41,453 bases of DNA, taken from contig SYGN01000049.1 in the NCBI GenBank assembly GCA_005799525.1, positions 1-41,453 on the forward strand, written 5' to 3'. The notes below the pieces were generated by a model. It was not told the DNA's origin. It saw only the letters and a list, made by a program, of their open reading frames with translations, and did not search any database. Made by a program: the position numbers and the translations under genes. The stretch is from Opitutaceae bacterium (GTDB lineage: Bacteria; Verrucomicrobiota; Verrucomicrobiia; Opitutales; Opitutaceae). Positions 2,593-25,472 of this stretch are shown here, piece after piece. Within the stretch, counting starts at the first letter, position 1, and each line of letters begins with the position of its first letter.

Positions 2593-4778
2593 CACGAGCC
2601 GCGGACACCGCCGAGCAACAGGCGCGGGGTGCCGACGTTGACGACACCGTCGGCGCTGCGGCCGGTTTCGACGCGGGCGTCGGTAAGGTTTTCGAGAGTG
2701 AAAAAGAGCGTGAGATGTTTCGTGAGCGGACGTGTGACGCCGAGGTCGGCCACGACCCCTTCGCCGAGGCGGAGGTTATTTTCGTCGTCCTCGAATTGTC
2801 GCCCGATCCAGCGCACGCGCGGCGTGAACGTGAGCTGCCCCGGTGCGCGCCAGGTGGCGCCGAGTGTGGCGCTGCGGCGCGGGACTTGGGCCACTTGTTT
2901 GCCGACGAGTGCGAGAACAACCGTCGCGCGGCGCACCGTCGCGTCGTTGAAAAGGGTGGCGGCGTTGAACGAGAAGGCGGCGGAGACGTTCCACGTGGCG
3001 GAAAGTTCGCCGCCCTGCGTGCGTGTGCGGTCGAGGTTGAGGCGCTGGCGTCCGAGTCCCCCGGCGGCCAGCGTGCCGACGATGGGGAACGTGCCGGGCC
3101 CGCGTGCGATGGTGACGTTGCCTACTGCATGATGGAGATCGTTCCAAAAGGCGGTGGCAGCGAGGGTGAGTGGTGCGGGTTGGGTGGGGGCGCCGAGCGC
3201 GGGTGGCGTCGGATGGCCGAAGGGCGTCCACTCGACGCCGATTTCGGCGGTCGTGACCGACTCGGTGCGGAGCGCGGGATTCGCCTCGGTGACATTCGCT
3301 CCCTGGCGAAACGGGCGATAGAGTTCGTTGAGCGTGGGGCGGCGGAACGCTTGTTGGGTGTTGGCGCGAAGGCGCCACGCGGCGTCAGGTTTCCACACCA
3401 AGCCGAGGCTCGGGCTGAACGCGGTGCCGTCGCGGTCGGCGTACTGGTCATCACGCGAGGCGATGCCGGTAGCGCGATCTGATTCACGTCGGTGGCCGTC
3501 GGTTTCACCCCACGAGTTGAGTCGCACACCGGCGGTGCCGCGCAGCTGCGGAGCGAGCGCTCGCTCGTGCAGCGCGAAGACGCCGAGGTCGGCCTGTTTG
3601 CCGCCGGCGACGCGGAGGCGTGTGAAGCTGCCGGCAACGAACGTGAAATATTCGCGCGTCTCGCCGCGCGTGGTGCGCGCATCCGCGCCGGCGCTCGTGC
3701 GTGAATCGCGGCCGTGTTTCCATGTGCCGGTCCACGTGGCTCCGAGCACGGTGGAGGGCACGGAGAACTGGTCGCTCGCGGGCGTCTCGGCGGTGCGGGT
3801 GGCGTTGACCGAACTGAACGTGCTCGAGAAGCCCTGATCCTGCGCGTAGGCGGTGGCTTTCCACCCAAAGGTGTCGACCGGTTGGCCCGCGAAATTTACG
3901 GCGAGGGAGCGTTCGCGCGAGCCGTTGTGCTGGTAGGGTGTGCCATTCCCGCGTTGCTCTGCAAAGCTACGAAAGGCCGCGCTCCAGGAAAGTTTTTCAC
4001 CGAGCGGTTGGCGCCAGCGGAGATTTAAGAGGGTGTGCCGGCTCCACGCCGCCACGTCGATCGGGCCGCGACGTTCCGGCGCGACGAGGGCGAAGCCATC
4101 GGTCGCGAAGACCTGCGCCCCGAGGTCAAACGTACCCAGCGCTCCGGGCTGCGTGTGAACAATTTCGGCGCTGCGGGTGCCAAAATCGCCGAACATCGCG
4201 TTGGCCCCGGTCGTCTGGTCGGAGGGCTGTTGCGTGAGAATCTGCACAACGCCGCCGAGCGCGGCGTTGCCCCACGCGGTCGCGCCGCCACCTTGGACAA
4301 CTTCGACGCGTGCGAGATTTTCGCGGGCGACCTTGGTCCACGCGACCCAGCCGCCGAAGGGATCGTTGAGCGGCACGCCGTCGAGGAGGACGAGTGAGCG
4401 GCTCGCGCCACTGGGGCCGAGGCCGCGCAGCGACACGCCTTGCGCGGTAGGGTTGGCGGACAAACTATCACTGCGGCGGAAGAGACTGAAGCCCGGCACG
4501 GAGCGGAGCGCGCCGTCGAGAGTGGCGGTGGGTGAGGCGCGGAGAGCCTCGTTGTCGAAGTCGCGCACCGAGAACGCGACCTGCTCCGCGGGCTGCGGCG
4601 TGCGCGTGGCGGTCACGACTTCGGCGGGGAGGGCGACGGTTTGCGCGTGAGCGGACCGCGCGCTCACGTTTGCAGCCACGAGCAGGACGAGGAGGAGCGC
4701 GCTTGCGCGCGCTGGAAGGGCGTGGCGGAGGCAATCGCCTGCAAGCAGGCTCGGACCGAGGCGGGGATGAGGAATCAT
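2589..4778 (-). CDS. TonB-dependent outer-membrane receptor
   Basis: An outer-membrane beta-barrel receptor of about 729 residues that would import a scarce nutrient using TonB energy. From the ATG at 4778 it has a basic N-terminus and a hydrophobic signal (ALLLVLLVAANVSA) ending near AHAQT. A TonB-box-like segment EVVTATRTP comes next. The plug domain follows, with SVRGF-type sequence (QGVSLRGLGPSGASRSLVLL), DGVPLNDPFGG and the VEVVQGGGATAWGNAALGGVV plug end. The remainder is an alternating barrel ending GVRGSW. The plug resembles BtuB/CirA-type receptors rather than SusC, and it lacks a carboxypeptidase-like N-terminal domain. No cobalamin-riboswitch core was found upstream, so the substrate is open. 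A longer frame runs up to 4925, but 4778 gives the better signal peptide. It is transcribed divergently from the gene at 5050. Confidence 0.88.
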   Translation of the reverse strand: MIPHPRLGPSLLAGDCLRHALPARASALLLVLLVAANVSARSAHAQTVALPAEVVTATRTPQPAEQVAFSVRDFDNEALRASPTATLDGALRSVPGFSLFRRSDSLSANPTAQGVSLRGLGPSGASRSLVLLDGVPLNDPFGGWVAWTKVARENLARVEVVQGGGATAWGNAALGGVVQILTQQPSDQTTGANAMFGDFGTRSAEIVHTQPGALGTFDLGAQVFATDGFALVAPERRGPIDVAAWSRHTLLNLRWRQPLGEKLSWSAAFRSFAEQRGNGTPYQHNGSRERSLAVNFAGQPVDTFGWKATAYAQDQGFSSTFSSVNATRTAETPASDQFSVPSTVLGATWTGTWKHGRDSRTSAGADARTTRGETREYFTFVAGSFTRLRVAGGKQADLGVFALHERALAPQLRGTAGVRLNSWGETDGHRRESDRATGIASRDDQYADRDGTAFSPSLGLVWKPDAAWRLRANTQQAFRRPTLNELYRPFRQGANVTEANPALRTESVTTAEIGVEWTPFGHPTPPALGAPTQPAPLTLAATAFWNDLHHAVGNVTIARGPGTFPIVGTLAAGGLGRQRLNLDRTRTQGGELSATWNVSAAFSFNAATLFNDATVRRATVVLALVGKQVAQVPRRSATLGATWRAPGQLTFTPRVRWIGRQFEDDENNLRLGEGVVADLGVTRPLTKHLTLFFTLENLTDARVETGRSADGVVNVGTPRLLLGGVRGSW

Positions 4779-14874: not shown

Positions 14875-15042
14875 TCACCCGGTTTCGTTCACCATGAAAA
14901 TGAATACTTTCGTCGACCCAGTCTTGACTGGTTCCTCGCTGTTCCCAGTCGGTGAAGCAAACGGCATTTGGCCGACCGTGAACCGTTCGGAGTCGGAGCG
15001 CGCGAGAGCGGGGTCGGTGACAACCGGTCGAGTTGCGACCAC
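14875..15042 (-). other. Possible small coding remnant
   Basis: A minus-strand frame from a GTG at 15042 to a stop at 14877-14875 gives 55 residues with protein-like composition. Examples are SERFTVGQMPFASPTGNSEE and a hydrophobic end KVFIFMVNETG. There is no upstream initiation signal and the region lies among repeats. It may be the tail of a lost gene, and no family is recognised. Confidence 0.2.
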
Positions 15043-15150
15043 GCGTCCAACGGACCGGCGGCTTTCCAGCCGCCCGTCCGTCCAGCGGCATCGTTGCCCG
15101 CCGTGGGTGCCGATCCACTGAAATCAGCGGTTAAACTCCTGATCCCGTTG

Positions 15151-15249
15151 GCGGCGCTTCGTGTTCCTTGCTTCCTCTGCGGCGGATTCTCCCGTCTCTG
15201 CGGTGCCCTCTTCGTTTATTCGCTCCGAGCCTTTTGCACCGCAGAGACG
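15151..15249. repeat. Dispersed repeat with 14-base hairpin, upstream of the NOS gene
   Basis: Bases 15151-15219 match 19018-19087 in the same orientation (GGCGGCGCTTCG..., GTTCCTTGCT, TCTCTGCGGTGCCCTCT, CGTTTAT), with scattered changes. Within this copy, CGTCTCTGCGGTGC (15193-15206) pairs perfectly with GCACCGCAGAGACG (15236-15249) over a 29-base loop. The phrase built on CCGCAGAGA resembles a repeat type common in PVC genomes. No gene was found in the rest of 15043-15516. A small palindrome TCGT-n6-ACGA at 15458-15471 and two TTAACGA copies (15465-15471, 15499-15505) precede the NOS start. Confidence 0.65.
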
Positions 15250-15516
15250 AAACTGGAACGTAGAGAAAACCCTGCTTCGCAACGGTTGCCCGGATGGTGT
15301 CTAAACAATGGGGAGGGGGAATGCAGACCCGGTCCCGCCTTGATTCCCCTGACCGCTATCGGCTCCCCGCAGCGGGCTGGCTCGTCCGCCGCCACGAGGC
15401 CCGCAGACCGCCTCGGCTAGGAGCGCTCCAAAGAAGCGGAAACCCGGCAAATTTTTATCGTAGTTTAACGACAGCTGAGTTGCGTTTCCCGTGAGGACTT
15501 AACGAAAACCAATCAG

Positions 15517-18500
15517 ATGACGCATCGCACCCTTTGCCAGCCGATCACTTTAGAGGAAAAAGCCATTGCGCACCGCCGCCTCTGCCTGCTCTTCGCCGAG
15601 ACTTCGCCGGAACGGATCGATCAGGCCCTGGAGTTAACCGTCACCCGATCCTTTGATGAAGGAGCCGTGGTTTTGGTGGAGGGATCATTAGCGGATGAGC
15701 TCCTCGTGCTTTGTTCTGGTCGATTGAAAATCTACGGGCGCGACCCGACCGGCGCACTGCTCGCGATCGCCACGATCCACGAACCTGGCCAGCTGATCGG
15801 CGAGCAAGCCTTCGCAGTCGATCGCCAATTTCGTAATGGGACCGCGATCGCACTCGTGGCGACCAGAGTCGCGGTCTTACCGGGAAGTGAGTTTAAAGCT
15901 CTGCTCGCTGGGGACGCGACGGCGCGGTTGCACTTGGCCATCTCGGGCAGGAGCCAATCGCGCGAAAAACTGCTGGCCTTGTTCGGCGAGCTGGGCGAGC
16001 TCACCGAACAAGCGCCCATCGCCGCACCCATCCCACGGCAATTGACGGCGGGGACCGTGCTCTTTTCGGCGGGAGATATCGCCACCCATGCTTACTTTGT
16101 TTTATCCGGGGAAATGGGTTTGTTTCATCCCGGATGCCCCGTGTCTCACGAGACGATCGGGCCAGGTCTCCTGCTCGGCGATCGCGAGGTGCTCGAGCGC
16201 AAGCGCCGCACGCTCCAAGCAGCTGCCATCACAAACGCAGAAGTCCTCGCGATAGAGGCAGCTGAATTGAGCGCGGTCGGAGGTAAAAAAAGCTCACTCG
16301 GAACCATCCTCGAGGGGTTAGCTTACGTGCACTCGATACCCCAGTTCGGATCCGCTTATCGCTTCTTGGGCCACGTCAACGGAGAGGCCTGCGTCGTCAC
16401 GGATTACCGGCAGGCAAACGGGCTGCGACTCCGCGTTCGGCATTTTCCGCAGCAACGTCGCACCGAAGCCGCGCGCATTGAGAAGTCCCGGGAACCGACG
16501 GAGACGATCAGCTCCCCCGACGGCGGATCTTCGCTCCTTTTAGCCGCTGGCACCGGCAGCCTCTTGGGCTTGGCCGCGCCCCAACATTGGCCCCAGTTGC
16601 CCGAGGCCATGGCGCTCCTGCTCAGAGGGGGATCGCTCGCCGACTGGCAAGTCGACGCTTTCCGCGCCAACGGTGATTTGTTAATCGAAGACCCCTCGCT
16701 CCGCGCCTCCGGTGGATCTGATATTGTGTGCGGCTGCACGAATACGACCTCCGCGACCCTGCGGCGTGCGGCGGAACGTGCCACCACCGTCGATGACTTG
16801 ATTCGCCTCACGGGCGCGGGCGGCATCTGTGGCGGCTGTCGCGGTCGGCTGCCCGCATTTCTCAACCAAAGTGATTATATCCTCTGCCACCTCCAGACCG
16901 AACCGTTGACTGAAGGCGTTCTCTTGGCCCGCCTCGAGCCCATCCATCCAGCCGTCTTGCCGCCCGTAAAAATCGGCCAACACATTCGCATCGAGGCCAT
17001 GATGGACGAACGCTGGGTGGGCCGGCCGTATACGCTCACCGCCTTCTCCCCCACCCGCTACGAATTGGGCGTTAAACTCGAAGAGGGCGGCCTTTTTTCA
17101 AACTGGCTCCGCCAAGCCGCGCCGGGGACGCTCCTCCGGGTATCTGCTCCCTCTGGCGCAATTTGCCCTCAAGACGACGATATCCGCCCCCTCGTTTACT
17201 TCGTCGCCGGGATCGGCGTCACCCCGGCGATCGCCGCCGCTCGCGCGCTCCGCCAACGTCGTCTGACAATCATCTACAGCTTTCGCCATCCCACGACTGC
17301 CGCGTACCTCGCCGAGCTGCGCACCGCCGCCAACCGCGGTCGGCTGCAACTTTTCGAACACGACACCGCCCAGCAAATGCGCCTGAGCGCGGGGGACGTC
17401 GCGGCGTACGTTCGCGACTTGGGCTCATGCGAAGTCATCGTGTGCGGGCCAGCGGCCTTCAACGCCACGGTCCTCGCCGCGCTCGGAACATTTCCAGAAG
17501 TCACGGCGAGCGCCGAAAGCTTCGATCATCCTCAGCGCGGCGAGGGCGCCCAACTCGCACCCGGCGCTTGGCGACAGAAAGACTTTCAACCCACGCGCGC
17601 CTTCGGCGCTCCCGTCGAGTCACCCACGACACTCCCGGCAACCGAGCAGGCCGCCCAATTTATTCGCGAATTCTACCATGAATCAACGCCCGCCCAAGAT
17701 CCCAGCGCGCGCGTGAGCGCGGTCCAGGCCCAGCTCACGCAAACGGGCGTCTGGGTAAAAACCTTTGAGGAACTCGCCTTCGCCACCCGCGTCGCTTGGC
17801 GCAACGCCGAACGATGCGTCGGCCGGCTTTACTGGCAGGGCCTCCATTTAAGGGACTGCCGTCAGCTTCGAGAACCCGCCGAAATCGCCGAGGCCCTCTG
17901 GGACCATCTCCGCTTCGCGTTCAACGGTGGTGAGCTGCGGCCGGCGATCTCGGTCTTCGATCCCGGATCCCCGCGCGAACCCGGACCCCGCATCTGGAAT
18001 CCTCAGCTGATGCGCTACGCCGGCTACCGCTTGCGCAGCGGCAAGCAGGTCGGCGATCCCGCTCAAAATGACCTCACTCAGAGAATCATCGCCTTGGGTT
18101 GGCGCCCCCCCGGCACCGACTTTGATCTGCTCCCCGTTGTCATCGAGACCGCCGCTCACGGGCCTCGCTGGTACGAGTTGCCCAGCGATTGCCGCTGGGA
18201 AATCCCCATCACTCACTTGCAGCATCCGTGGCTCGCCACGTTAAAACTAAAATGGTACGCGATCCCCGCTGTGAGCGATATGGCCCTCGATGCGGGCGGC
18301 ATGGTGTACCGCCTCTTGCCATTTAACGGCTGGTATCTCGATACGGAAATCGCCGCGCGCAATTTAAGCGATGTGAACCGCTACAACGTTTTGCCCCGCA
18401 TCGGCGAGTGCATGGGGCTCGATATCAGTAGCGACCGCACTCTCTGGCGCGACAAGGCCCTCCTGCTGTTAAATGAAGCCGTACTCCAATCGTTTGACCG

Positions 18501-18780
18501 CTCAGGAGTAAAAATGTCCGATCATCACCATGTCGGGCATGAATTCCTCGAGTTCTGCCGCAATGAGCAAAAGTCTGGCCGCGAGCCCTACGGCAATTGG
18601 ACATGGCTCGTTCCACCCGCCGCCAGCTCCACCTCAGTCCTCTATCAGGAGCCCTTTCACGACAAAGCACTCAAGCCAGCTTACGTCTATCAGGCACCCG
18701 CCTGGACGGAACGGCCGCAGCCTTCAAATTCAAGCCCTGGCACCCGTACTCCAGCCCCCGAGAAATGTCCCTTTCATTGA
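15517..18780 (+). CDS. nos: Self-contained nitric oxide synthase: two cNMP-binding-like domains, BFD-type [2Fe-2S], FAD/NAD reductase, NOS oxygenase
   Basis: A 1087-residue protein expected to make nitric oxide and citrulline from L-arginine. Domains in order: two cyclic-nucleotide-binding-like folds (about residues 25-140 and 165-262), where the phosphate cassette keeps IGEQAF in the first but reads LGDREV in the second. Then a linker domain (270-400), followed by a BFD-like iron-sulfur motif with C405-x-C407 and C438-x-x-C441. A ferredoxin-reductase-type module follows (about 455-690): RPYTL 503-507 for FAD, GIGVTP 565-570 and CGP 643-645 for the nucleotide. The C-terminal NOS oxygenase domain (about 705-1065) has WRNAERCVGR with heme ligand C767, and arginine-binding E944 in DTEIAARN. 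Bacillus-type NOS usually lacks an attached reductase. The reductase-before-oxygenase order resembles Sorangium NOS. TTA leucine codons are far commoner than in neighbours, which hints at transfer. The protein is soluble and ends with CPFH. It has no operon partner. Confidence 0.93.
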   Translation: MTHRTLCQPITLEEKAIAHRRLCLLFAETSPERIDQALELTVTRSFDEGAVVLVEGSLADELLVLCSGRLKIYGRDPTGALLAIATIHEPGQLIGEQAFAVDRQFRNGTAIALVATRVAVLPGSEFKALLAGDATARLHLAISGRSQSREKLLALFGELGELTEQAPIAAPIPRQLTAGTVLFSAGDIATHAYFVLSGEMGLFHPGCPVSHETIGPGLLLGDREVLERKRRTLQAAAITNAEVLAIEAAELSAVGGKKSSLGTILEGLAYVHSIPQFGSAYRFLGHVNGEACVVTDYRQANGLRLRVRHFPQQRRTEAARIEKSREPTETISSPDGGSSLLLAAGTGSLLGLAAPQHWPQLPEAMALLLRGGSLADWQVDAFRANGDLLIEDPSLRASGGSDIVCGCTNTTSATLRRAAERATTVDDLIRLTGAGGICGGCRGRLPAFLNQSDYILCHLQTEPLTEGVLLARLEPIHPAVLPPVKIGQHIRIEAMMDERWVGRPYTLTAFSPTRYELGVKLEEGGLFSNWLRQAAPGTLLRVSAPSGAICPQDDDIRPLVYFVAGIGVTPAIAAARALRQRRLTIIYSFRHPTTAAYLAELRTAANRGRLQLFEHDTAQQMRLSAGDVAAYVRDLGSCEVIVCGPAAFNATVLAALGTFPEVTASAESFDHPQRGEGAQLAPGAWRQKDFQPTRAFGAPVESPTTLPATEQAAQFIREFYHESTPAQDPSARVSAVQAQLTQTGVWVKTFEELAFATRVAWRNAERCVGRLYWQGLHLRDCRQLREPAEIAEALWDHLRFAFNGGELRPAISVFDPGSPREPGPRIWNPQLMRYAGYRLRSGKQVGDPAQNDLTQRIIALGWRPPGTDFDLLPVVIETAAHGPRWYELPSDCRWEIPITHLQHPWLATLKLKWYAIPAVSDMALDAGGMVYRLLPFNGWYLDTEIAARNLSDVNRYNVLPRIGECMGLDISSDRTLWRDKALLLLNEAVLQSFDRSGVKMSDHHHVGHEFLEFCRNEQKSGREPYGNWTWLVPPAASSTSVLYQEPFHDKALKPAYVYQAPAWTERPQPSNSSPGTRTPAPEKCPFH

Positions 18781-19657: not shown

Positions 19658-20785
19658 TTACTTCGCGCTGAATCGATACACGGTCGTGCTCTTCAACGTC
19701 TGCCCGGGTCTAAGAATGGTGCTCGGGAAGGAGGGCTGGTTGGGGGAATCGGGATAGTGCTGCGTCTCGAGGCAAAAACCACTGCGGAACGGATAGGGCC
19801 GGCCGCTCTTGCCGGTGAGTTTTCCGTCGAGGAAATTGCCGCAGTAAAACTGCAGCCCGGGCTCAGTGGTGAGCACCTCGAGCACGCGGCCTGACGTAAG
19901 TTCCCGCACGGTGGCGGCCAGCGCCAGTTTCCCACTTTGGTTGTCGAGCACCCAGTTGTGGTCGTAGCCGCCGCCGAACGTCATCTGCTCGTCGTTGGCC
20001 TGCACGCGCTCGCCGATCTTATGTGCGGTGGTGAAGTCGAATGGCGTGCCTTTGACCGGGCGTAGCTCGCCCGTGGGAATGAGGCCGACAGTGACCGGCG
20101 TGAACGTCGCAGCCTTGAACGTCATCTCATGGCCGAGGATGTCGCCGTTACCTTCGCCTCGGAGATTGAAGTAGCTGTGTTGCGTGACGTTGACCGGCGT
20201 GGCCTTGTCCGTGGTCGCCTCGTAATCGATGCGCCATTCGTTGTCGTCGGTAAGTAGATACGTGACGCTGAGCTTGAGCGTGCCGGGGTAACCTTCCTCG
20301 CCGTCCTTGCTGGTGTAGGTGAACTTCACTCCCTGCGCTCCCTTCATCACCAGCGCTTCACCGCGCCACACGACCTTATCGAAACCCTTCAACCCGCCGT
20401 GTAACGAGCATTTGATACCGCCGGGATCGTTGTTCGTCGCCAGCGTGTACGCCTTGCCGTCGACGCTAAACTTTCCCTTCGCGATGCGGTTGCCGTAGCG
20501 ACCCACGATCGCGCCAAAGTAGGGTGTGTCTTTGACGTAGTCAGCGAGCGTGTTGTAGCCGAGCACGATGTCGGCGCTCCGGCCGTTGCGGTCCGGTGTT
20601 TCGAGGCTGAGCACAATGGCTCCATAGGTCATCGTGCGCAGCTTGATGCCATGCTGGTTGGTGAGCGTGAAGACTTCGACCGGCGTGCCATCGGGCGTCT
20701 GGCCAAACCGTTCAGCCTTGGGCGGCTCAGCGGACATGGCGTCGGTGGTCAGCGCGAGGGCAAGGATGAGGGCGTTGGTTCTCAT
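19658..20785 (-). CDS. galM: Aldose 1-epimerase (mutarotase)
   Basis: A 375-residue GalM-type mutarotase that interconverts alpha and beta anomers of aldoses. It has a signal peptide (MRTNALILALALTTDAMSA), so it probably acts in the periplasm on released sugars. Family landmarks are GYNTLADYVKDTPYFGAIVGR, YGNRIAKGKF, NNDPGGIKCSLHGG, the catalytic-base histidine region VNVTQHSYFNL, and the catalytic glutamate near the C-terminus in FCLETQHYPDSPNQP. Length and motif order match full-length GalM. The start at 20785 is chosen for the signal peptide. It lies downstream of a sulfatase on the same strand with a 144-base gap, so the two may be cotranscribed for degradation of a sulfated glycan, an inference from adjacency. 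Confidence 0.92.
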   Translation of the reverse strand: MRTNALILALALTTDAMSAEPPKAERFGQTPDGTPVEVFTLTNQHGIKLRTMTYGAIVLSLETPDRNGRSADIVLGYNTLADYVKDTPYFGAIVGRYGNRIAKGKFSVDGKAYTLATNNDPGGIKCSLHGGLKGFDKVVWRGEALVMKGAQGVKFTYTSKDGEEGYPGTLKLSVTYLLTDDNEWRIDYEATTDKATPVNVTQHSYFNLRGEGNGDILGHEMTFKAATFTPVTVGLIPTGELRPVKGTPFDFTTAHKIGERVQANDEQMTFGGGYDHNWVLDNQSGKLALAATVRELTSGRVLEVLTTEPGLQFYCGNFLDGKLTGKSGRPYPFRSGFCLETQHYPDSPNQPSFPSTILRPGQTLKSTTVYRFSAK

Positions 20786-20929
20786 GGTGGGCGGGAATGG
20801 TTCGATTTGACGGATAACCTTGGTCAACGGAATGGGGAACAAAGCAACGACGCGCGCGGCGGCCGATGTGAATCGTTTCCAAACAGCAGCGTGCAGGCGG
20901 AGAACAGCTTTGGGTCGGCGACCATCGGA

Positions 20930-22330
20930 CTACTTTTTCTTCCCCTTTTTCGCCGCAGGTCCGTCCGCCTTGGCGAGGCCGCTTGGACCCAGGTGCCGCC
21001 ACCAATCGGGGCCTTCGGCTTCGACGGCGGCGTGGTGTTTGAGGAGCTGCGCGCGCAACGCGGCGAAATGCTGCGGCTCCGTGGCCTTGAGGTCGTTGGT
21101 TTCCCGCGCGTCGGTCTTGAGATTGTACAGTTCGAACTCGGTGAGTTCCGCGTTGGCGAGAATCTTCCAATCGTCCACGCGCATCGCGACCTTCGCGTTC
21201 GGGGCCATGTTGAGCCGCCAGTAGAGCGGCTGCGGGCGGTCGAGTTTCGTCACGGTGCCGGTGAGGGCGGGCAAAATGTTCACGCCGTCGAGTATGCGGT
21301 CGACGGGTGGCTTGACGCCGGCGATGGCGAGCATCGTGGGAAACACGTCGCTGCCAATGACCGGAACCTCGCTCGTCGTGCCCGGCTTGATGTGGCCGGG
21401 CCAGCGCGCGAGTCCCGGTACGCGGATGCCGCCCTCGTGCATGGAGCGCTTGCGTTCGCGCAAGCCGCCGCTGGAACCGCGCCCGGGCGTCGTGACGCCA
21501 TCGCCTTCGGGGCCGTTGTCCGAGGTGAAAAAAACAAACGTGCTGTCGGTGAGCTTCTGCTCGTCGAGCGATTTCATCAGCAGCCCAAACGCGTGATCCA
21601 TCTGCGTGACGTTGGCGTGGTGTTCGCGCTGCACATCGTCGGTGAGATTGGGATACAGGGATTTGAATTTCGGGTCCGACTTGATCGGGTAGTGCGGTTC
21701 GTGGGTCCACACCGCGAGGAAGAACGGCTTCGTGGCGTCGCGTTTTTCCTTCAGCCATGTTATCGCCTCGCCGACGACGAGCGGCGCGGAGAAGCCCTGC
21801 AGCGGGCCGACCGGCTGGCCGTTGCGGACGAAATTGCTCGGGTTCTCGTGCGACGGGCCGGCGTTGTTCTGCGTGGCCATCCACCAGTCGTAGCCGTGAT
21901 CGCCAGGCTGCGGCTGCGCGGGATGGTTGAAGAGGCCGTTCAGATGCCACTTGCCGCTATGGCAGGTCGCGTAGCCCGCGCCCTTGAGCAGTCGCGGCAA
22001 CGTGATCTCGCTCGTGCGCAAGTGCGCGACACCGCCCTCGGCGATCCAGGTGTAGACGCCGTTGCGAAACGGCGTGCGGCCCGTGAGCAAGGCCGAGCGC
22101 GACGGACTGCACACGGCGCTGGCGGAGTAACACTGCGTGAGCCGCACGCCCTGCTGCGCGAACGCGTCGAGGTTCGGCGTTTTGATGAGGGGATGGCCGT
22201 AGCTGGCGAGGTCCCCGTAGCCGAGGTCATCCGCGAGGAAAAGGATGAGGTTCGGTTGCGCGGCGAACGAAAAACGGGGAACGAAGAAAGACGCGAAAAC
22301 GGTGAGCGCGAGGAGGAGCAGTGATTTCAT
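20930..22330 (-). CDS. Exported formylglycine-dependent sulfatase (S1 family)
   Basis: A 466-residue periplasmic sulfatase that would remove sulfate esters from a glycan. After the signal peptide (MKSLLLLALTVFASFFVPRF) it shows the metal-site motif LADDLGYGD (about residues 32-40). The sulfatase signature C74-SPSRSALLTGR follows, whose cysteine is converted to formylglycine. Then come GKWHLN, TSDNGPEG and GIRVPGLARWPG. The C-terminus is Lys-rich (KKGKKK). It is closely related to the broken sulfatase at 34731-35541, sharing long stretches such as GPSHENPSNFVRNG-type sequence, so the two are probably paralogues. The substrate cannot be named from sequence. The start at 22330 gives the signal peptide. 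Confidence 0.92.
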   Translation of the reverse strand: MKSLLLLALTVFASFFVPRFSFAAQPNLILFLADDLGYGDLASYGHPLIKTPNLDAFAQQGVRLTQCYSASAVCSPSRSALLTGRTPFRNGVYTWIAEGGVAHLRTSEITLPRLLKGAGYATCHSGKWHLNGLFNHPAQPQPGDHGYDWWMATQNNAGPSHENPSNFVRNGQPVGPLQGFSAPLVVGEAITWLKEKRDATKPFFLAVWTHEPHYPIKSDPKFKSLYPNLTDDVQREHHANVTQMDHAFGLLMKSLDEQKLTDSTFVFFTSDNGPEGDGVTTPGRGSSGGLRERKRSMHEGGIRVPGLARWPGHIKPGTTSEVPVIGSDVFPTMLAIAGVKPPVDRILDGVNILPALTGTVTKLDRPQPLYWRLNMAPNAKVAMRVDDWKILANAELTEFELYNLKTDARETNDLKATEPQHFAALRAQLLKHHAAVEAEGPDWWRHLGPSGLAKADGPAAKKGKKK

Positions 22331-22383
22331 GCGGGATGGGTCGTGGGGTCGGGAATATGAGGTGACGGGTGAGCCGAAAAGGG

Positions 22384-22400
22384 TCAACCCGCTGGTTGCT
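22384..22400 (-). repeat. Inverted partial copy of the 43-base RES-Xre flanking repeat
   Basis: TCAACCCGCTGGTTGCT (22384-22400) is the perfect reverse complement of 22603-22619 inside the left flanking repeat. Together they form a large inverted repeat of about 235 bases between the sulfatase promoter side and the toxin-antitoxin operon. Similarity fades outside these 17 bases. The rest of 22331-22729 shows no gene. Confidence 0.6.
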
Positions 22401-24074: not shown

Positions 24075-25472
24075 TCAGCGCGTTTTGGAAAAACACTGCG
24101 GATCGGGTTGGCGAGGCAGTGTCGCCATCCAGGCGGCGAGGAGCGCTTGCAGGCGCTTCACTTCGGCGGGATTCTGTTCGCTGACATTGGTTTTTTCCCA
24201 TCGGTCCTGAGGAAAACGGAAAAGCTCGAGGGGCTTCGTATCCTTTCCGGCCAGCAGTTTTCCGTCGCCATCGCGCACGGCAAGGGTCGGCCAACTGTCC
24301 CCGGGTTTGCCCGGAGTCGGCCACTGCCAGAAGATCGGCTTGGCGCGTCGCGAGGTTGATTTACCCAACAGCGCCTCGCTCTGGTCGACGCCGTCAGGGG
24401 CGTAACTTCCCGGCAATGGGGCACCCGCCAACGCGCACAACGTCGGCAGCAGATCCACGGCCGTGAGGGGCGTCGTGTCGTCAACGTTGTTGGCGGCGAT
24501 CTTGCCGGGCCAGCGGGCGATGAAAGGCACGCCGATGCCGCCCTGCAGCAGGGAACGTTTTCGGCCGCGATGCCCGCCCGTGCTGCCGACGGAGGCCCAG
24601 CTGCTGAATCCGGGCCCGGTCGACTCGTCTTCGCCCATGCGGCGATCAGCTGGCCCGGTGATTTCCGGGCCGTTGTCGGAGCTGAACATCACGAGCGTGT
24701 TGGGCGCGAGACCGAGCCGATCCAGCGCGGCCAGCAGTTCGCCGATGCGGGCGTCGGCGTGGGCGATCACGGCCGCGTAAATCCTCTGGGCCTCGTCCGG
24801 CAGATCCGCGAATTTCTCCAGGTACTCCGGCTTGGGGTAGTGCGGCGTGTGGGGTTCATGGATCCAAAGGTTGAGGAAGAACGGCTTCCCGGCCGCGTGG
24901 CTTTTTTCGATGAACGCGATCGAGTTCTTCACATCGTCGTGCACGGGCATCTGCGGGCCGGGACAATTGTAGGTGCCGTAGGTGTCGTATCCGTATTCTG
25001 AGGGCAACGGGGCGTCCGGCACCATGATGTTGGTCAGGTGCCATTTTCCGTAGTGTGCCGTCGCGTAGCCGGCTTGTTGCAAGAGTCGCGGCAGCAGCAC
25101 CGCCTTCGGGTTCAGCCAGTCGGGCATCCCGCGCTGCACATGGCTCTGCACCGTGGCGAAATGCCCGTGGATGCTGAACCGCGCGGGAAACTGGCCGGTC
25201 ATGAGCGCGGTGCGACTGGGTGAGCACACGCTGCCGGCGACGGTGAATTGGCGAAAGTCGGTGCCCGCGGCGGCGAGCCGGTCGAGGTAAGGCGTTTTGA
25301 GATACGCGTGGCCGTACGATCCGAGATCGCCCCAGCCCCAGTCGTCGGCGAGGATGAACACGATGTTCGGTCGACCGGCGGTGGTGGGGGCGGGCGTGGC
25401 GGCGAAAGTGGCCGGGGCGACGACTCCGAGCAGGGCGAGTCTGAGCGAGTGGGCGATGCAGAAGTGGGGCAT
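24075..25472 (-). CDS. Exported formylglycine-dependent sulfatase (S1 family), last gene of the glycan operon
   Basis: A 465-residue exported sulfatase. After a signal segment (LRLALLGVVAPATFAA) the mature part starts near RPNIVFILADDWGWGDLGSYG, holding the Asp pair for the calcium ion. The signature C83-SPSRTALMTGQ follows, then GKWHLTNI, SSDNGPEITG and GGIGVPFIARWPGK. The protein ends QCFSKTR. It begins 30 bases after the stop of the GH127-like gene, so it is very likely cotranscribed and removes sulfate from the same glycan. It differs clearly from the sulfatase at 20930-22330 (insertions around GEDESTGPGFSSW), so they probably act on different sulfated positions. That last point is an inference. 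Confidence 0.92.
   Translation of the reverse strand: MPHFCIAHSLRLALLGVVAPATFAATPAPTTAGRPNIVFILADDWGWGDLGSYGHAYLKTPYLDRLAAAGTDFRQFTVAGSVCSPSRTALMTGQFPARFSIHGHFATVQSHVQRGMPDWLNPKAVLLPRLLQQAGYATAHYGKWHLTNIMVPDAPLPSEYGYDTYGTYNCPGPQMPVHDDVKNSIAFIEKSHAAGKPFFLNLWIHEPHTPHYPKPEYLEKFADLPDEAQRIYAAVIAHADARIGELLAALDRLGLAPNTLVMFSSDNGPEITGPADRRMGEDESTGPGFSSWASVGSTGGHRGRKRSLLQGGIGVPFIARWPGKIAANNVDDTTPLTAVDLLPTLCALAGAPLPGSYAPDGVDQSEALLGKSTSRRAKPIFWQWPTPGKPGDSWPTLAVRDGDGKLLAGKDTKPLELFRFPQDRWEKTNVSEQNPAEVKRLQALLAAWMATLPRQPDPQCFSKTR

Follow-up and report, generated by a model that had tools for sequence, protein, structure and literature searches.

Within the window, that is, the whole stretch of 41,453 nucleotides analyzed here, one forward-strand frame with an ATG start encodes a protein of 1087 aa plus stop, which joins two cNMP-binding (CNB) domains, a middle domain, a BFD-type [2Fe-2S] domain, an FAD/NAD(P)H reductase module (FNR), and a nitric oxide synthase (NOS) oxygenase domain (Table 1). 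Both content and order of these domains are established: cNMP_binding, Fer2_BFD, FAD_binding_6, and NO_synthase (4/4) exceed their own curated Pfam cut-offs in the window protein, and cNMP_binding, Fer2_BFD, and NO_synthase do so again in all five relatives scanned, FAD_binding_6 in three of the five. The original prediction had placed two cNMP-binding-like domains, a BFD-type motif, an FAD/NAD reductase, and a NOS oxygenase in this order in one 1087-residue frame; the domain calls and their order are borne out, and the quoted motifs were located at residues 761–770 (WRNAERCVGR), 942–949 (DTEIAARN), 503–507 (RPYTL), 565–570 (GIGVTP), and 643–645 (CGP). What it had missed is a conserved domain of about 145 residues and no known family between CNB2 and the BFD domain.

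Table 1. Features of the fused NOS gene in the window (residue numbers refer to the encoded protein).
Feature	Position	Strand	Basis
Whole fused gene, 1087 aa, CNB1-CNB2-middle-BFD-FNR-NOS	15517..18780	+	Frame, Pfam, same chain elsewhere
CNB1, cNMP_binding domain (residues 44–131)	15646..15909	+	Pfam; phmmer to CNB proteins of known structure
CNB1 phosphate-binding-cassette-like stretch LIGEQAFAVDRQFRNGT (residues 93–109), Glu96, Arg106	15793..15843	+	Alignment
CNB2, second cNMP_binding stretch (about residues 173–248)	16033..16260	+	Pfam; phmmer coordinates
CNB2 diverged phosphate-binding cassette LLLGDREVLERKRRT (residues 218–232), Asp222 and Arg231 kept	16168..16212	+	Alignment
Middle domain (residues 256–402), no known family, possibly Reductase_C/Rubredoxin_C-like	16282..16722	+	Aligned in 8/8 fusions
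BFD-like [2Fe-2S] domain (residues 403–448), Cys405, Cys407, Cys438, Cys441	16723..16860	+	Pfam; aligned Cys
FAD/NAD(P)H reductase module (about residues 455–670), flavohemoglobin/phthalate-dioxygenase-reductase type	16879..17526	+	Pfam, phmmer
NOS oxygenase domain (residues 709–1063); heme Cys767, Val919, Arg-site Glu944, pterin Trp1030	17641..18705	+	Pfam, alignment
C-terminal EKCPFH (residues 1082–1087)	18760..18777	+	Sequence

The same chain, or as much of it as the respective contig covers, is found in 11 further genomes (12 including the window) belonging to Opitutae, Planctomycetota, and Alphaproteobacteria, and hence to three phyla. Because it is present in other assemblies, namely separate MAGs, a chimera or assembly artefact is ruled out and the fused architecture is real, far beyond chance. 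The suspected Verrucomicrobial host agrees with the genus mates that carry the same gene (Opitutae/Opitutus MAGs); the search for the same domain order across genomes thus confirmed Verrucomicrobial hosts but not a restriction to Verrucomicrobiota, given the planctomycetal and alphaproteobacterial carriers. Among the sampled proteins, a single branch (98/91) has all the fusion NOS domains on the same side, and proteins from the genus that consist of NOS alone are placed elsewhere in the NOS tree. Neither viral nor plasmid carriage was retained: none of the 84 pattern matches in a scan of viral contigs was a relative, and of the 35 plasmid records returned by tblastn, none matched at least 80 % of the query in a single place. 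The NOS on a Nostoc plasmid is annotated as oxygenase only.

In the catalytic part, Fer2_BFD (PF04324; E 6.8e-10, 39.6 bits versus a cut-off of 26) contributes the C-x-C...C-x-x-C cysteines, which are invariant in 8/8 aligned fusions. It is followed by FAD_binding_6 (residues 484–549, E 1.1e-6), while the NAD half received no Pfam call in the window protein; NAD_binding_1, which the prediction had also expected, shows up in two of the five relatives, there below its own cut-off. In phmmer searches, the FAD/NAD stretch nevertheless matches reductases of known structure, flavohemoglobin among them. NO_synthase (PF02898; E 1.7e-131, 438.9 bits versus a cut-off of 22.7) is matched at near full length (positions 6–361 of 362), and structural alignments give 42–43 % identity to Bacillus/Geobacillus NOS. 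At the aligned sites of these enzymes Cys767, Glu944, and Trp1030 are identical, residues that we take to be the heme ligand, the Arg site, and the pterin site, respectively; the predicted NOS domain thus retains its heme ligand residue. Val919 occupies the site of Ile218 in Bacillus NOS (4d3v) and is shared with mammalian NOS; Val at this site is linked to efficient NO release in the available portion of PMC9500659. Only 24 residues remain after the NOS domain, and no flavodoxin family is among the Pfam matches up to E 1 in the window protein, which, unlike mammalian and SyNOS-type NOS, lacks an FMN flavodoxin domain and a C-terminal diflavin reductase.

On balance, we consider it slightly more probable than not that the protein is a self-sufficient NOS (NAD(P)H > FAD > [2Fe-2S] > heme) gated by its CNB module, plausibly in response to cAMP or cGMP. 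NAD(P)H would reduce the FAD in the FNR module, from which electrons may pass via the BFD-type [2Fe-2S] cluster to the NOS heme; there, L-arginine and O2 would be converted into citrulline and NO with the aid of reduced pterin or folate. The catalytic half of this proposal is supported by a precedent, the NOS of Sorangium cellulosum (scNOS), which is described in the accessible text of PMC3701330 as carrying N-terminal 2Fe2S, FAD, and NAD parts ahead of the oxygenase, and likewise as self-sufficient with a C-terminal oxygenase (see also the available parts of PMC6104048 and PMC9311577). The window chain shows the same order (BFD, FNR, NOS). Oxygenase-only NOS, as in Bacillus and Verrucomicrobiota, share the oxygenase domain but have neither reductase nor CNB domains. 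A comparable design is described in PMC12922734 and PMC6104048 for the NOS of Synechococcus PCC 7335 (SyNOS, PDB 9q05), which likewise shares its chain with a reductase and has a C2 domain that responds to Ca2+ as its regulatory module. The reductase of SyNOS is, however, of the flavodoxin-FNR diflavin type, and the chain includes globin modules, whereas in the window FNR and [2Fe-2S] are N-terminal and Pfam yields no flavodoxin or globin match.

The resemblance to scNOS leads to an alternative that comes close to an even call, namely that the protein is an ordinary Sorangium-type self-sufficient NOS and that the two CNB domains have simply gone unnoticed in the known type (scNOS and its proposed cyanobacterial look-alikes), so that only the hosts would be new. 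Besides the shared order of parts, the proteins similar to scNOS that are proposed in Microcoleus and Crinalium (available portion of PMC3701330) speak for it, and since members of the fusion group come from three phyla as it is, finding one in a myxobacterium would be unsurprising. On the other hand, the Crinalium protein was aligned with SyNOS-type sequences (PMC4648414, accessible part), which clouds the cyanobacterial look-alikes, and the term “cyclic nucleotide” does not occur in the main text of the NOS papers searched for it, which are secondary sources. A literature search within freely accessible papers, judged mostly by title and the start of the abstract, likewise gave no CNB–NOS fusion. 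The comparison of the window protein with scNOS is by description, and the CNB domains, the middle domain, and the BFD type of the cluster are stated here for the window protein. The catalytic half follows the order already described for scNOS, and the CNB front end may be new, a novelty limited mainly by the fact that scNOS is known here by description and not by sequence. The Sorangium-type alternative is compatible with a CNB-gated enzyme, and the two do not exclude each other.

The front end itself is supported by PF00027 (E 6.5e-27, 93.8 bits versus a cut-off of 27.5), which matches two stretches, the best at residues 44–131, and by phmmer matches to known structures, in line with the cNMP-binding folds predicted for the N-terminal 260 residues. 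CNB1 of the window keeps the Glu and Arg of the phosphate-binding cassette (G95 E96 ... R106 N G T), presumably the expected ligand-site residues, whereas in CNB2 the small residues that normally follow the key Arg have been lost. Scored with our own pattern, exactly one canonical cassette per protein was found in 7/8 aligned fusions, two of the eight being 97 % identical; the exception (P0009) has no canonical cassette and Asp for Glu in CNB1. The canonical copy sits in CNB1 in Opitutae and Planctomycetia and in CNB2 in Alphaproteobacteria. The CNB domains and the middle domain, placed ahead of the electron chain, would most likely gate electron flow, the most likely signal being a cyclic nucleotide on the one CNB with a canonical-looking cassette (CNB1 in this lineage). 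Class III cyclases (PF00211) are encoded in 9/11 carrier genomes, and together with the one canonical-looking cassette per lineage they make the sensory front end of the original prediction plausible, with the two CNB domains as the sensor; ligand binding and the regulation that it had proposed are putative.

Among bacterial CNB domains there are many that do not bind a cNMP. It is quite conceivable, if leaning towards doubtful, that the CNB domains are ligand-free and serve dimerization, docking, or redox/oxygen sensing, the enzyme being constitutive or otherwise regulated. The cassettes diverged in CNB2 of Opitutae and CNB1 of Alphaproteobacteria point this way, as does the search for PF00211, which covers class III only and found no cyclase in two of the 11 carriers (G398 and G394, genome completeness not established). 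Each lineage nevertheless keeps one near-canonical cassette, with canonical PRAATV in 3/3 alphaproteobacterial CNB2 domains. Against the gated reading, CNB2 is better conserved between the window and Planctomycetia (58 % identity) than the canonical-looking CNB1 (35 %), a poor fit with simple use of CNB1 alone. G398 has no PF00211 match although its CNB2 is fully canonical. That the product feeds a specific oxidation or nitration step of some biosynthetic route, rather than signalling, is very unlikely: on plasmids, other bacterial NOS genes do lie next to radical SAM genes (L064, L065), but by eye no common pathway neighbor was seen around the fusion genes at five loci (L036, L041, L043, L044, L045). 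HNOB, sought as an H-NOX partner for NO reception, was found in only 1/11 carriers.

To our knowledge, most bacterial NOS are devoid of any regulatory part, and the switching of these enzymes is therefore little understood. Tentatively, and judging from sequence comparison, the fusions could form a widespread class of single origin in which a cAMP/cGMP-gated NOS is combined with a new electron-transfer or regulatory domain exclusive to the class. If true, NO synthesis would be under the control of cAMP or cGMP, inverting the order known from animals, where NO leads to cGMP, and provided that CNB gating holds, a further regulatory solution would stand beside calmodulin (animals) and C2 (SyNOS). 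Because the probable sensor and the oxygenase share their chain with a complete electron path, NOS switching becomes directly testable in one purified protein, for which the relatives in three phyla offer natural variants for structure–function work.

The middle domain, found in these fusions only, is a candidate new family. Pfam gave no match for the window member and, across the eight, five families in one member each, at chance level (best E 0.019); NCBIfam gave PID_CTERM in 2/8 members (best E 0.075) and one other family in 1/8. The PDB profile search (best E 1.3, no significant match), phmmer (no match up to E 1), and a viral fold library (no match at E 0.001 or better) added no relative. 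In a fold search, 46 of the 50 PDB matches listed were flavoproteins of the AIF/BphA4/toluene-dioxygenase-reductase/MDHAR type (best E 0.03), many of them repeat entries of the same few proteins. NirB nitrite reductase offers a possible parallel, with a small domain (Rubredoxin_C) ahead of its BFD cluster. Order and register are suggestive, but hhalign against four NirB sequences gave no significant profile match (E 0.15, probability 0.4 %), and a Rubredoxin_C-like identity is tentative. For the whole chain, AlphaFold2 returned a poor model (pLDDT 65.7, pTM 0.34), from which domain contacts cannot be derived, and the whole-chain fold search, with NOS entries only among the 50 matches listed, is uninformative on the front end. 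At its other end, the protein closes on CPFH, which is also the chain end in the Erken relative.

All domains foreseen in the original prediction lie in one frame, namely a pair of cyclic-nucleotide-binding (CNB) domains, a BFD-type [2Fe-2S] domain, an FAD-binding reductase and a nitric oxide synthase (NOS) oxygenase, each matched above its curated Pfam cut-off. By phmmer against solved structures, residues 1-266 match 11 distinct CNB sequences (E <= 0.001), CRP-family regulators and cGMP- or cAMP-dependent kinases among them, which together with the Pfam match bears out the expected CNB fold of the N-terminus. The reductase stretch resembles cytochrome b5 reductase, flavohemoglobins, phthalate dioxygenase reductase and P450-fused reductases (7 sequences), and the C-terminal third resembles Bacillus, Geobacillus and mammalian NOS. 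The five Pfam matches to the protein (E <= 1) include no flavodoxin, globin or calmodulin-related family, and no operon partner is evident among the flanking frames read in the window.

Features of the fused gene and its surroundings (nucleotide positions in the window unless residues are stated)
Feature	Position	Strand	Basis
Whole fused frame, 1087 residues	15517-18780	+	reading frame
cNMP_binding, two stretches	best, residues 44-131		Pfam, above curated cut-off
Fer2_BFD	residues 403-448		Pfam, above curated cut-off
FAD_binding_6	residues 484-549		Pfam, above curated cut-off
NO_synthase (E 1.7e-131)	residues 709-1063		Pfam, above curated cut-off
Last long upstream frame	ends 14792	+	reading
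150-aa frame of no known meaning, between last long upstream frame and fused gene	14968-15420		
Downstream frame taken as gene; overlapped by + frames	19658-20842	-	reading
Downstream frame taken as gene, sulfatase-like; overlapped by + frames	20930-22387	-	reading
Sulfatase-like frame	24075-25472	-	reading

Alignment with structural NOS sequences places Cys767, Glu944 and Trp1030 at what we take to be the heme ligand, Arg-site and pterin-site positions, respectively. The BFD cysteines 405, 407, 438 and 441 are invariant in all eight aligned fusions. A CPFH/CPIH motif, possibly capable of binding metal or heme, closes the Opitutae fusions, and in verrucomicrobial NOS-only proteins, i.e., oxygenases devoid of a reductase, it lies close to the N-terminus (window 18760-18777; L051, from the Erken Opitutae genome; L031, L033). 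Val919 aligns with Bacillus Ile218 (PAVSDM vs PIISDM) and is Val in every fusion NOS read that extends to it, while the NOS-only proteins read have Val, Ile or Leu, several loci giving no reading by motif pattern. For mammalian NOS, the accessible part of one paper links Val here to efficient NO release (PMC9500659).

Judging from the domain families, electrons would pass from NAD(P)H via FAD and the [2Fe-2S] cluster to the heme and, more tentatively, the CNB pair might gate this flow upon a cyclic nucleotide signal, a role comparable to that of calmodulin in animal NOS or of the Ca2+-sensitive C2 domain of Synechococcus PCC 7335 NOS (PMC12922734, in its accessible part). As described in the accessible portions of three papers, the catalytic layout of Sorangium cellulosum NOS (scNOS) matches that of the window protein (PMC3701330, PMC9311577, PMC6104048), which we rate as a variant of this known self-sufficient layout, the two being set side by side by description only. 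The term 'cyclic nucleotide' is absent from the available text of the NOS papers checked for it, as is 'cyclic' from that of PMC4648414; no description of a NOS with CNB domains was found in the partly accessible literature searched, which does not establish absence in print, and scNOS itself may prove to share the CNB front end.

In the window protein, the CNB1 cassette (GEQAFAVDRQFRNGTA) is near the canonical phosphate-binding cassette, and that of CNB2 (GDREVLERKRRTLQA) retains an acid and the Arg but has lost the small residues. The three alphaproteobacterial fusions present the reverse case, with GE(L/V)GVL...PRAATV in CNB2 and an eroded CNB1. By a pattern written after the sequences had been seen, exactly one canonical cassette is present in seven of the eight aligned proteins; the eighth, P0009, has none because Asp replaces Glu. 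The planctomycete G569 fails the pattern in both domains owing to spacing and frame; by eye, RNASA in CNB1 and, beyond a frame change, RAASV in CNB2 are discernible. This distribution of cassettes suggests that one putative ligand site has been retained per lineage. Domain identities within the Alphaproteobacteria fit this reading (CNB2 61-62%, far above CNB1 at 29-33%), whereas those between the window and Planctomycetia count against it (CNB2 58%, CNB1 35%). Class III cyclases are present in 9 of the 11 carrier genomes searched, none being found in G394 (Erken) and G398. Another protein with CNB-like repeats is encoded in the window's genome (L024 3387-5672, contig G000:C8, also L002; a 762-aa frame, E 3.0e-4); by reading, it seems to contain membrane segments as well as EF-hand-like stretches.

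Between CNB2 and the BFD domain, residues 256-402 of the window protein have no Pfam match; the other aligned rows gave single-member Pfam matches only, at chance level, NCBIfam a weak PID_CTERM in 2 of 8 plus one other family, and a PDB profile search a best E of 1.3. In four genome draws that include the query genomes, with at most 15 to 28 candidates scored per genome, the profile of this middle domain matched 1/250 Alphaproteobacteria, 2/255 Planctomycetota, 1/145 genomes of the window's phylum and 1/140 of the order of G397 (Devosia), always within a NOS fusion, G569 being the sole independent match (E 5.6e-8). The AlphaFold2 model is compact (mean pLDDT 79.8, core blocks mostly 82-94), and 46 of the best 50 PDB fold matches are AIF, BphA4-like ferredoxin reductases or MDHAR, at a best E of only 0.03. 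The BFD cluster of NirB has a Rubredoxin_C domain in front of it, and hhalign gave a plausible, not significant register with NirB; kinship to Rubredoxin_C/ferredoxin-reductase-type domains is a lead only.

The same domain order was recovered, as far as contigs reach, in 12 genomes of three phyla (the window, ten named loci and G569). The original expectation of a verrucomicrobial host holds for the window's genus and Opitutae MAGs, but the layout extends to Planctomycetota and Alphaproteobacteria. All but one of the nine genomes in the window's genus match the fused protein, five with the fusion (the window, three at 97-98% identity and one at 59%) and three with an oxygenase alone (41-44%). 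From 72 pattern matches, a genome contig scan yielded 10 relatives, each of which joins reductase and oxygenase in a single frame: six are Opitutae MAGs, and the other four are a member of Planctomycetia, one of Rhodospirillales, a Devosia and a further alphaproteobacterium. Judged by contig number and match position, L036, L037, L038 and L042 belong to genomes G393, G391, G389 and G160, respectively. As the scan reaches only proteins containing IWNPQLM or GLFHP[GN]CP, no conclusion follows from the lack of relatives in other organisms, Sorangium among them. L037, L038, L039 and L042 end at contig edges; L037 begins inside CNB1, and the CNB part of L039 is not visible because the locus starts at residue 368. 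A PF02898 survey found NOS in 18/387 genomes of the window's phylum (with a long frame only in the window's own genome and in G160, of the same genus), in 4/392 Planctomycetota (fusions in G395 and G569, no fusion in G668, too short a fragment in G463) and in 1/385 Alphaproteobacteria, a fusion in the very genome on which the draw was centred. In G569 (L057), most of the CNB pair lies in one frame and the remainder in another, the change falling inside CNB2 and reflecting either a sequencing error or a real break. Beside its fusion, G160 carries a partial, probably broken second NOS (L023 about 3088-3885, - strand; also L021, L034; profile positions 188-299, 29% identity over query 894-1075), and the Erken Opitutae genome (G394, L051) has, in addition to the fusion, a second NOS without reductase.

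A single branch separates the 11 fusion rows from the rest of a maximum-likelihood tree of 40 NOS domains (ultrafast bootstrap 98, SH-aLRT 91; recovered in 98% of 200 bootstrap trees). Inside the fusion group, G569 branches off apart from the split between Alphaproteobacteria and Opitutae plus Planctomycetia; oxygenases without reductase from the same Opitutae genus fall elsewhere. The sample held no myxobacterial or cyanobacterial fusion. As the tree was rooted at its midpoint purely for display, a single origin is the most economical interpretation and not proven; across three phyla, it would imply transfer or very old ancestry. On two alphaproteobacterial plasmids (L064 1367-4194, L065 1400-4200), an annotated radical SAM gene lies directly upstream of a NOS-only gene with a few-base overlap, and in the planctomycete G668 (L058 1869-4756) a radical-SAM-like frame adjoins the NOS frame by reading. 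The radical SAM-NOS pair is possibly an NO-using biosynthetic cassette, and the three NOS cluster at 100/100 in the tree.
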